From NCBI RefSeq assembly GCF_029227915.1, contig NC_079880.1, positions 21,328,501 to 21,392,500 on the forward strand: DNA of 64,000 bases. The letters run 5' to 3'. Of this stretch, positions 37,601 to 46,600 are shown piece by piece. The position numbers and the translations under genes were made by a program. This stretch comes from Hydractinia symbiolongicarpus (Eukaryota; Cnidaria; Hydrozoa; Anthoathecata; Hydractiniidae). A model generated the notes under the pieces. That model searched no databases. It was not told the DNA's origin and worked only from the letters and a program-made list of their open reading frames with translations. Positions within the stretch are counted from its first letter, which is position 1. Each line of letters opens with the position of its first letter.

Positions 37601-40600
37601 TTGTCATGATGCTTTAAAGAAAAATGTAAAGTTACCGTATTTCCTCTAGCACAAAAAACTTGACTACAGATGATACAAACATTATCTTTACTTTCATATA
37701 CTTTTAAACTTTAAGCGCCGCCCTTCTAACGAGCGCTACCCTCTAGTAAGGGCCCCTTTAAATTTCGTGAATTTTCAATGAGCGTGCAGGCAATTATTAG
37801 AGAAAATACGGCACGAATATTATAATCTAGCAGCATAAGTTAAGGTAAAAGTAATTACCAGTTGGGTGAAACTGTACAAATTCAAGATCTTCATTGGGTA
37901 GTCCTGCTCGTGTTACCATTGCAGTGCCATCACCAGTGCAAGTGTGAGCAGACGTGCATGAAAAGTAAGCACGTCCATAGCCACTGTATTAAACGAACAT
38001 ATATATGGTAAATGCAAATTAATGCTTACTGGGTGATCCATTTTACTGGATCTAATTTGTTGAATTAGATAACTTTAATTGCGTCCTTTTTTAATTTCAT
38101 TTGTCGAATGTGAAATTTCAAAAGTTAGATATTTAAGTTTCAAAATTGCAATCGACCACATTCTCCAAAATTCAAATTCGAATTGGACAGGTTAATTTGT
38201 CTGTTTTCTAAAGCTTAACCAAAACACCTACCCAGTAGCGATGATTGTATTTTTGGCTTTAATTCGATGCAATGAGCCATCCTCTAAATTAAGTGCCATC
38301 ACACCCAAGCATCTACCTTTATCCATTAGCAGGTCCATAGCGAAATATTCAATGAAATATTGACAGTCGTATCGAAGTGACTAAAACAAAATACCAACTT
38401 AGAACAATACTATTCTTAAACAGGTTTATACAAACAAACTCAAACAAAAGCTGATTTTTAGTACTTACCTGTCCATATAATGTATGTAGCAGGGAGTGCC
38501 CAGTTCTGTCAGCAACAGCGCAACAACGATGTGCTTGCCCGCCTTTACCAAAATTTAAACTTTGTCCTCCAAAAGCTCTTTGATAAATACGTCCCTCTTC
38601 TGTTCGACTGAAAGGCATGCCATAATTTTCTAATTCGTATACAGCCTGTGGTGCTTCACGTGTCATGTAGTGTATTGCATCCTGGTCTCCCAACCAATCA
38701 GATCCTAACATTTAACAAACATAATATTACACTTTTTTTGTTTATCCACATAGAGGCATACAAAGGCCATGAAATTTGGGAAAAGCTGTTATTTTAGTAC
38801 GGTTTAAGATTTGACACGTTACCAATTTGATCGTAAGTATAAGCAAACATGTAAACATTGTCAATTTTCATTTGTGTATTGTGCATGGGTACAAACTGCG
38901 TCAAATTTGTGTATTAATTTATTGCTTAAGTGTAATTTTACTCTCCCTTGTATTTGGTGTTCAGTTTTAAAAAGCTCGTTTTTTATATCAACATATTTTT
39001 TCAGGAATAACTTCATCATCACACCAATTAGCTTTTAGGTTTAAAATACGAATTAGATTTTCTGCAAGACTTTATAAATAAATACATCATTATACCAAAT
39101 AAATCAAGGACAAAAAAAAGAACAATTATAACTCTTATATTTACTGAGCATGCGTGACTTTATCTTGTATTAGTCATTCTTGTTTGCCCATTAACATGAA
39201 AACTGTAGCACAACCATATTGAACAAATGAGATACAGCTATTATTCTCGTAACTTTTAACTGCAATAAATTTTATTTTTATATATACTACAATAATGGCT
39301 AGGCAGTTAAAATATTAACAAAGAGAGATTAAATAATACCGATGACCCATTTATACCCATGCCTATTTTTATATACCGTGATGATCCGAACCTCAAATGT
39401 TTTTGTAATTAATTTTTCTTTGTTTTGATCTATTTATCTCTTGCAACCAATGTTTAAAAACTGATTTCTCTTAATCTATTGCCTTTTTTCCTCAAAGTAA
39501 TTTTTTAGTACTATAGAAAAATGCATTACAGATGGAGAGAGAACAATTGAAAATAAATTCAAAAAGGTTTAACCACATTGTGTTTTGTTTGAGATCAATT
39601 TCACACTCCCTTATCACAAAACATTATGACAAAAAAATAAAATTAAAATACACATATAATATATTATTTTTTGATCAGTTAACAAAGCTTAAATTTGGTG
39701 TTCAGTTTTAAAAAGCTCGTGTTTATATCAACATACTTATTCAGGAATAAATTCATCATCACACCAAAAAAACTGCCAAATAATTATTTTATTTAACCAA
39801 TAAAAACAAAGTTTTATTGTAGATCCTTATTCTACTGTTCAGAGTTGTGGATCAATAACTATCAAACTATACATATTCTATTTTTCTGCAATTTTTTGCA
39901 ATTTTTAAAAGTCAGTGGAGGTTACATAATCCGAATATGGTGTTCAGTTAAGCTCGTTTTTATATCAACATATTTTTCCAGGAATAAATTCATGTTACGA
40001 AAAGACAAATTGGAACGTTTTCATTCTTCCAAACCACTGGCAGTAATGATTCTTGGTTAACGCTAGGCTAAAATTAAATGCTGCATTCTTTAAACTCAAC
40101 ATGTAAAAATCTAATAGAGGTATTGTTATTATGCTGGAGAAATTGTACATATCAACCTTGGAAAGATTTATTTATGGATTATTCAACAAAATTAATGTTT
40201 GGTGTCAAGTTTAAAAAACCTCGTTCTTATATCAACATATGGTTCTGGAATAAATTTATCATTACACCAACAGTGTAACAAAAATACAAAGTGTAAGACA
40301 TGCATTTTTCCACAGAACTAGCAAAAAGGATTCTTGGTTAATGCCAAGCTAAAATTGAAAGCTGTATTCTTTAAACTTAAAAGGTAAAAACCTAATAGTA
40401 GTATTATTATGCTGAATAAATTGTACATATCAACCTCGAAGGGAATAACATTGAAAAGATTTATTTATAGGACAGTCAACAAAGTTTATGTTTGGTGTTC
40501 AGTTTTAAAAAGCTCGTTTTTATATCAACATATTTATTCAGGAAAAAATTCATCATCACACCAAAAAAACTGCCAAATAATAATTTTATTTAACCAATAA

Positions 40601-43600: not shown

Positions 43601-46600
43601 TTAAATTTATCTTTTTCTGGCTGTCTTCTTTTTTTATGAGGAAAATGTTTTTGCAGATGCAGGTAAAGAAGTATTTTTAACAGAAAGAAGTTTTCATGAT
43701 TTTACTAGAATTTTTTCTTCAGTTTACAATTTCACAACAAATTTTAGGAGTCAGTCATGTGTTTACAAGTTATTCGCTGAAATAATCTTGTAAGTATAAA
43801 GAGAACATTTTCTTATATTTATGTAATTTTTCCTATGATTTCTTTTAAACCTTATCCCATCTCTGTCAGAAAAGTTTGACCTACCATCCCCCTTTTAATA
43901 TTAGATTTGTAACCAATTTATATCAAGCAATATTAAGTTTTGGCTAATCTGGCAATTTTCGATTTTTTCGTAAGAATTAATTTTTTTAAATGTCTGGTAT
44001 TTATATATAATTTTTCATTTGCTGGACTCGTCAAATGTTGACGAAGACTTTTACATAAAACATTTTTTCTGATGCTGAAGATTTTAGTAAAAGTCAGTAC
44101 TGTCAAATAAAGAAAACTTGATTGTGGGCAAAAAATGTGGTAGAAATTTTTGTGGATAAGAGATTTTAAGTTTTTTTTATAAAGTTAGAGTTAAGGTAGA
44201 TGTAACTTACAGGTAACATAGTGATAACATAACAAAAGTAGTTACAAGGATGTTTTCCCTGTTCCTGTGTACTGGCCAGACTAACTAACCTAATTGGTTT
44301 AAATTACACCTACCTTTCGTCAGCTACCTAGTTAGTTAGCTAACTGGACTTGCTTATAAAAATTAGCAATAAGGTGCCAACAATAACATTTCTTTCTGGT
44401 TTAATGTGTCGGACGCCTCACTTTTATTAGTTAGGCTAACCTTACGACGGAATCAACAGTTTTTAGTCATTAATAACCTTGAATTTTGTATTTTTTGAAT
44501 AGAATACAGTCCATAAACCATTAAAGAATACACTATTATTTCATTTTGGTGTTATAATAGTACAGCATGGAGGTATAAAAGTTAATCATAGGTTAAGATG
44601 CAAGTTAATTTTTCCGTGAATGTTGTTGTTTTCTTCTAAAATTGCCCCTACAAGCGTTTCAATAGTGCCCAGACTGCGCTGCATGAAAGTAAGTAATAAG
44701 CAAAAATGTTAAAGAATGAATGTCAAGAATTGTATTGTCAACTTATCATGGATCATGCTCATGGCGTTATATGCACACATGTGGTCCTAATTTCAGTACC
44801 ACATATATAATACAAACAAATATAAAACAAAAAAGGAGGGCAATTGTGTTTTGTACAATAATTTTAAAAAGTTAACCAAACAAATCCTTTTATTAACATT
44901 CAACTGCTTTATCCGTATGCTTGGTGTTCAGTTTTAAAAAGCTCGTTTTATATCAACATATGATGGTTTCAGGAATAAATTCATCATTACACCAACAAAA
45001 TTGGATATGAAATTTAATAAAAATAGTAATAAAATTTCTAGTTTAAAATTAAAAAAAAAATTATTTGCAACCTCAGACTTGCTTTAAGAGGGCTGTTCTT
45101 AAACATTTCTTCGTTTCCCGTTTTCCTACTGGCCTATGCAAATTTTCGCCAACCACTAAAGTTTGGGTCAGGATTTTTCAACATTCCTTTTACCAGTATT
45201 TTGCCATGCTGGATACAGAGGGACTAAGAACGATAACAAAGGAGGTACAAAAAATAGATAGAGCGTAAAGTAATACAGTAAGCGAGGCTAACAAGAGGAC
45301 CAGAGTAGACAGTAAAATGATGTATATTTTTGTCTGATGAAAAGGTAAAAAAAATATGTTGACGGACCGACCCTGCATCAAACCTACGAGTTGGAAAACG
45401 CAAACTAACAATTAAAGAGGTACAGCCCAGCAATTATCCAGTGAAAAAATCCACTATAATAATAACAATAAGGCGACTCCAATTTAATTGTTCTACGGGC
45501 CCAACCGACCCTAATTTTCACGAAAACAAAAAATAATAATATCAAGCAAAAACGTTTTAAAGAAAAAAAGGAGAAAAAAACAAATTCTCATCCCATCTTG
45601 TGAAAATATAATGAGCATAGACAATAATCATTAATGTTTTTTTTTGTTAGTTGAATGTCAACAAGGTTAATCAATAACGTTACTTTACTTAGGACCACTG
45701 TTGTTAAGGCCACTGAAAGTTGATTCTTTGTTCATGGTAATTTGTTGCAATAAAACTAAAATGTGTGATGCGCTAATTTTGTAATCACAAAAATAGTTAC
45801 ATGGTTAAACAGAAGTTTTTGAATTTTTATGTGATTTGTAACAAAAATTATCTACTTTCGCTAAAATAGTTATGATACAAGCGAAAAACAAGACAGATTA
45901 TTGTCGTAACACCCTCCTTTGTTATGATAAACATGTATGTTTACGCTAGCTGAACTGTATTACAGTTGATACCATTTGGGAAAATAATTAAAACAAGATA
46001 GAATACGCTTGTTGTAACACCCTCCTTTGCTTTGATTTTCTAAAAAATGATTTAACCGCTGTGAGAGACTTTAAATATTCTCAAGTAAACAACCATGGTC
46101 CAAAAAAGAATTTGCACTTAAATTGCATTAAAAGAACACTAAAATTGATTGTTTTATTATTTTAAGTAGGAGAAGAATAACTCTCTATATAAGTTTCAAA
46201 ACAAGGCAAGTATAACCTGCTGTAAAACTTTTAAAACAATACAAGTATATTCTGTACAACTTTCAAAACAGCACAAGAAAAATTCTTGCTGCATAACTTT
46301 TAAAAACAATGCAAGAAAAATTCTTGCTGCATTACTTGTAAAAACAAGTTTTTGAAAATCCAAGTCATTTTATGTTCTCACCTTGAAAACTAGTTACATA
46401 TTTTTTAGTGAGGCAAATTATTATTATATTTTCTTTGCAACTAAAAAATATAAACTGCATGTGTTATGCAAAAATACATAGAAAAAAACGGTTGTGGTAA
46501 CACCCTCCTGCGTTGTTATTTAATTATTTTTTTGTTGTTCCAACCATACATTCTTGATAAAATTATTTTTATTTCACCGACCGACCGACCGTAAGCTACT

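Follow-up and report, generated by a model that had tools for sequence, protein, structure and literature searches.

A cluster of ten SNORD36-derived box C/D snoRNA units in a single SDHA intron of Hydractinia symbiolongicarpus

Background

The SNORD36 family of box C/D small nucleolar RNAs (snoRNAs) is represented by U36A/B in human, snR47 in yeast, AtU36 in Arabidopsis, and CD25 in Dictyostelium, all with the same expected site (Am668/Am619). The present study concerns ten units derived from this family that are situated within one intron of SDHA in the hydrozoan Hydractinia symbiolongicarpus (NCBI RefSeq assembly GCF_029227915.1, contig NC_079880.1, positions 21,328,501 to 21,392,500 of the forward strand); the whole analysed stretch of 64,000 nucleotides is referred to as the window, and positions are counted from its first base. 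The likeness to snR47, AtU36, and CD25 runs via the site, whereas guide and D box register were compared with the Rfam SNORD36 consensus. In human, SNORD36A and B are hosted in RPL7A (a passage of PMC6316387), and for these two the RPL7A host named in the original prediction, a note made earlier from the letters of this DNA, holds. An RPL7A host, which is a human feature and does not define the family, is not found for the cluster described here, in which ten copies share one SDHA intron; a further SNORD36 copy may exist in RPL7A of this genome. The lineage-specific relocation put forward in the original prediction is a mere possibility, as either gene may be the older host.

Passages of PMC2780460 cite intronic snoRNA clusters of rice and of Drosophila, likewise with several snoRNAs in one host intron; however, all units of the Hydractinia SDHA cluster represent one snoRNA, and this comparison refers to the rice and Drosophila clusters as they are cited there. 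A difference in host has been reported for SNORD24, which lies in RPL5 in four sponges but has RPL7A as its human host, and duplicated snoRNAs of sponges occupy adjacent introns of ribosomal protein genes (passages of PMC3412847), whereas the SDHA copies lie in one intron. Hydractinia itself possesses tandem arrays of noncoding RNA genes that include snoRNA U3 (a section of PMC11067881); these differ in being roughly evenly spaced with tens to hundreds of near-identical units, they are not described as intronic in that section, and SNORD36 is not named in it. Intronic snoRNA clusters and changes of snoRNA host are already known, and what is unusual here is the host gene and the copy number. 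Among the literature matches listed, which leave subscription journals mostly uncovered, no title or beginning of an abstract named a SNORD36 cluster in SDHA, and the match combining SDHA, 'snoRNA host gene' and intron dealt, judged by its title and the beginning of its abstract, with a factor of nonsense-mediated decay.

Organization of the cluster and state of its copies

Ten units of common origin, all derived from a box C/D snoRNA, are found on the minus strand between 44995, where unit 1 begins, and 38954, where unit 10 finishes; these outer coordinates, originally predicted for ten minus-strand copies, are exact. Eight of the units reach or exceed the gathering cut-off of the Rfam family SNORD36 (RF00049; 30 bits) with 38.4 to 56.9 bits and E values of 8.2e-7 to 0.013, all on the minus strand, which confirms the proposed family identity; units 7 and 8 fail this cut-off. 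No family other than SNORD36 reaches its Rfam gathering score in the window, and weak sub-gathering matches of SNORD63, SNORD107, SNORD125, and snoR38 to some units (E 1.3 to 8) were read as generic C/D resemblance. All ten units were also recovered (E 1.2e-25 to 1.7e-13; next match E 0.32) with an nhmmer profile built from the seven intact copies, which match it by construction, such that units 5, 7, and 8 are the independent recoveries. The guide together with the D box (ACGAGCTTTTTAANNCTGA) occurs eight times in the window at up to three mismatches, compared to a mean expectation of 0.43 and with none of 100 shuffles getting to eight; seven of these occurrences are exact and lie within the cluster, and the eighth, with three mismatches, is situated outside it at 35469.

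The unit follows the plan UUGGUGU, n, the C box AUGAUGA, 8 nt, the D' box CUGA, a loop, a C'-like UUGAUAU, a few A, the guide ACGAGCUUUUUAA, AA, the D box CUGA, and ACACCAA. Seven of the ten units keep the C box AUGAUGA, the D' box, the D box CUGA, the 13-nt 18S guide, and a short closing stem, as had been predicted for that number of copies. The wider claim that every box is kept in these seven stands for C, D', and D, but not for the C'-like TTGATAT, a poor C' box that is retained in six of them. Similarly, a closing stem of 7 bp, formerly ascribed to all ten units, exists in six of the seven intact copies, with 6 bp in unit 3 and no 5' stem arm in unit 8, and the ten units of about 74 nt include unit 8 with only 59 nt. 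A second guide before the D' box was considered as well, and no constraint is claimed for it, three columns between C and D' being variable when the seven intact copies are aligned.

The intact copies, all on the minus strand, are unit 1 (44921 to 44995; Rfam 53.6 bits), unit 2 (42126 to 42199; 54.7 bits), unit 3 (41305 to 41377; 53.9 bits; C'-like box altered), unit 4 (41069 to 41141; 51.9 bits), unit 6 (40492 to 40564; 56.9 bits), unit 9 (39695 to 39767; 53.8 bits), and unit 10 (38954 to 39027; 53.2 bits). The three remaining copies, on the same strand, are decayed: unit 5 (40745 to 40816; 38.4 bits) exhibits an altered C box and a guide that is 2 nt shorter, unit 7 (40199 to 40270; nhmmer E 5.4e-16) is altered in its C, D', and D boxes and in the guide, and unit 8 (39938 to 39996; nhmmer E 1.7e-13) lacks, besides its 5' stem arm, the C box as well as a portion of the guide. 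Between units 9 and 10, a stretch at 39071 to 39098 on the minus strand agrees with the 5' half of the unit in 22 of its 28 bases, a number that none of 150 simulated introns reached (best 21); by nhmmer alone it is not significant (E 7.3). It is probably a truncated relic of an eleventh copy.

Guide element and expected 18S target

The guide of 13 nt stops 2 nt before the D box and is identical, with identical spacing, in seven of the ten units; in these it is complementary to the stretch UUAAAAAGCUCGU of 18S ribosomal RNA (rRNA), with D+5 at the first A. According to the D+5 rule, the nucleotide paired at the fifth position from box D is methylated. As the guide and its distance of two bases from the D box are those of the Rfam SNORD36 consensus, the rule points to the first A of this stretch as the target, in the register that had been predicted. 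The predicted pairing over 13 nt is likewise supported by published 18S primers, in which the target string is present: TTAAAAAGCTCGTAGTTG is contained in primers that were applied to a pentastomid and to a bee community (PMC6977755 and PMC3204775, passages).

This target is expected to correspond to human Am668 and yeast Am619, an assignment based on register and family rather than on a numbered 18S sequence. The homology, already proposed in the original prediction, agrees with a single table row in PMC8817022 that pairs Am612 with CD25, Am619 with snR47, Am668 with U36A/B, and Am621 with AtU36 (the column heads stand outside the passage, and the organisms are deduced from the names); Am668 and Am619 are also paired in a passage of PMC11542601.

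Concerning unit 5, the guide lacks two U, and D+5 would, if an RNA were made, aim at a position two nucleotides farther into the A run. Altered target specificity was rejected for this unit because its C box is changed, and the copy is probably dead.

Host gene and intron

The multi-exon coding region of SDHA was found on the minus strand at 31683 to 48534, with the stop codon following at 31682-31680. The joined exon peptide, which comes without the N-terminal exon (not located) and without an internal exon near 37075, matches mitochondrial SDHA chains in PDB with a reported E of 0, and the Pfam domain FAD_binding_2 was detected in all but one of five scanned exon pieces, the exception being 39 amino acids (aa) long. 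The entire cluster is situated in an SDHA intron of 8,909 nt on the minus strand (38705 to 47613; GTACAC...TTAG, i.e., GT-AG) that interrupts a codon after its first base and has a G+C content of 28.7% (71% A+T). The upstream exon ends with ...YDTVK-G and the downstream exon begins with SDWLGDQ, such that the reading is continuous with solved SDHA sequences. The intron call rests on homology and splice signals, and on the same grounds, together with the PDB matches, the claim of an SDHA host with sense intronic copies is upheld.

All ten units lie inside this one intron in sense orientation. The distance between the 5' splice site and the start of unit 1 is 2,618 nt, unit 10 ends 249 nt short of the 3' end of the intron, and the gaps between units range from 163 to 2,721 nt. 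Taken from this layout, the locus is a predicted intronic snoRNA gene cluster, i.e., at least two snoRNA genes in sense orientation in one intron.

Duplication of the copies

Blocks larger than the single unit are shared within the cluster: the block of units 3 and 4 is 85.5% identical to that of units 5 and 6 over 553 columns and 81.3% identical to that of units 8 and 9 over 337 columns, and the block of units 4 to 6 is 76.6% identical to that of units 7 to 9 over 684 columns. Units 1, 2, and 10 share shorter flanks with other units in the self-comparison, the columns outside the unit amounting to up to 126 (unit 2 versus unit 3), 47 (unit 10 versus unit 3), and 17 (unit 1). The shared multi-unit blocks indicate local duplication inside the intron, in blocks of one to three units, and show that the predicted copy-number expansion took place within this intron. 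The same blocks speak against an origin of the copies by retroposition; no A-tail was seen by eye after unit 1, and target-site duplications were not searched for systematically.

Some flanks match at least as closely as the units that they border. The downstream flanks of units 4 and 6 (41068-40969 and 40491-40392, minus strand) are identical at 100 of 100 positions, compared to an identity of 95% for the units and of 85% for the upstream flanks; for units 6 and 9, the upstream flank matches at 96 of 100 positions and the units are 96% identical. The mosaic of units 4 and 6 probably reflects conversion or recent exchange.

Restricted variation, release of the copies, and alternative explanations

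Very probably, the intron represents a SNORD36 cluster with seven apparently working and three decayed copies, which would be expressed with SDHA, act as 18S guides and be under selection, with dose as the likely reason. The copies would be transcribed together with SDHA, the snoRNAs freed from the spliced intron, and the freed RNAs bound by the box C/D core proteins, which are 15.5K, NOP56, NOP58, and fibrillarin. The element of 13 nt before box D would then direct 2'-O-methylation of the first A of 18S UUAAAAAGCUCGU, and selection would retain boxes and guide in several copies, probably for dose.

Pairwise comparison of the seven intact copies yields a mean difference of 0.012 in the 49 stem, box, and guide columns versus 0.206 in the 29 others, and none of 5000 permutations is as extreme. 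As the seven were chosen for intact boxes, the test was rerun on nine and on ten units: without unit 8, the values are 0.062 versus 0.217 (again none of 5000 permutations as extreme). Twelve of the 21 pairs of intact copies lack flank alignments that surpass the background threshold, yet their units are 90 to 95% identical; blastn prolongs some of these pairs slightly (units 2 and 9 by 46 columns, 15 of them different). The other nine pairs possess alignable flanks of 72 to 85% identity, save the upstream flank of units 6 and 9 (96%) and the downstream flank of units 4 and 6 (100%), and the columns outside stem, boxes, and guide show a divergence among the seven intact copies similar to that of most of these flanks. 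On balance, this fits several copies kept by selection and others decaying.

A number of points speak against a cluster of selected, working copies. The choice of seven box-intact copies biases the column test, and with all ten copies the difference of 0.117 versus 0.210 is equalled in extremeness by 129 of 5000 permutations, which weakens it. The 18S target string was taken from published animal primers and not from the 18S of the host organism. Flanks as alike as the units or more so (units 4 and 6, units 6 and 9) suggest that recent exchange or conversion has acted as well. Regarding release, in the standard route the intron is spliced out and debranched and then trimmed by exonucleases as far as the ends that the core proteins shield, with mostly one snoRNA per intron in animals, and two per intron can yield a long RNA with snoRNA ends (passages of PMC11028025); many copies in a single intron, as well as the 249 nt from unit 10 to the intron 3' end, suit this one-per-intron release poorly. 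Internal copies would therefore need an endonuclease or splicing-independent release, and among the nine spacers folded (three of them over their first 150 nt only) no unusually stable RNase III-type hairpin was found (z -1.36 to +2.1).

It is conceivable, albeit doubtful, that one or two copies, either the outermost or elsewhere in the genome, supply all SNORD36 RNA, and that the rest are passenger duplicates homogenised by conversion. Three of the ten copies and one probable relic have already decayed, the identical downstream flanks of units 4 and 6 are a sign of recent conversion or duplication, and trimming shielded at both ends keeps the stretch between snoRNAs, such that internal copies might never be freed (passage of PMC11028025). 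However, seven copies preserve guide and boxes despite the average difference given above for their other columns, most alignable flanks differ by 15 to 28% (except 0% downstream of units 4 and 6 and 4% upstream of units 6 and 9), and conversion alone would need to affect functional columns only. Rather improbable is an intron product in the form of a long noncoding RNA of several kb strung with snoRNPs, i.e., a sno-lncRNA, rather than just separate snoRNAs of 73 nt. Such RNAs are reported to arise from two snoRNAs in one intron via protection of both ends, and the gene layout, with at least seven copies in one intron and no hairpin entry sites seen, is compatible with this; yet the reports of sno-lncRNAs concern human and other mammals (passages of PMC11028025), and the intronic clusters of rice and Drosophila are cited simply as an organization of snoRNA genes (passage of PMC2780460). 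A combination in which seven working copies tie the supply of the 18S guide to the expression of SDHA, a gene of mitochondrial respiration, and in which the many snoRNPs on one excised intron lead to long snoRNA-capped RNAs besides monomers, is equally regarded as unlikely. Almost no credence is given to an AT-rich repeat that is snoRNA-like by chance: the A+T content of the intron and the position of the units in larger repeats would suit it, but the Rfam E values of eight units, seven exact occurrences of guide and D box where less than one is expected, and the restricted variation of functional columns argue against it.

Other features of the window and comparisons with other contigs

Upstream of SDHA, an open reading frame (ORF) of 927 aa of the long interspersed nuclear element (LINE) type, with endonuclease and reverse transcriptase domains, is located at 50674-53454 on the plus strand, followed at 57454-58466 by a 60-bp repeat in around 17 copies (96% matches), partly open on the plus strand. 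An ORF of 159 aa for a universal stress protein (Pfam Usp) is found at 62251-62727 on the minus strand. Further ORF pieces match Pfam Ion_trans_2 (ion channel) in two stretches at 8015-8758 on the plus strand and Pfam SelR (methionine sulfoxide reductase B type) at 15957-16220 on the minus strand, and a perfect (CTT)76 run extends from 6063 to 6290.

With respect to relatives in public collections, a 29-base pattern had no match in viral contigs. The pattern of guide and D box was found in 50 stretches of prokaryote contigs, with around 30 estimated by hand for 257 billion bases, and was attributed to chance. Four matches of an 18S stretch in viral contigs were dropped, three of the four loci having been scanned with no Rfam family at gathering.

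Conclusions

By its host, SDHA, the cluster adds a non-ribosomal gene to the record of snoRNA host changes. If expressed, it would offer a natural dosage series for a single guide within one intron, with seven copies separable by their D'-C' loops and three decayed copies as built-in controls. It would test whether internal snoRNAs can be freed from a multi-copy intron in animal cells, against the rule of mostly one snoRNA per intron, and whether copy number alters methylation at a conserved 18S site.

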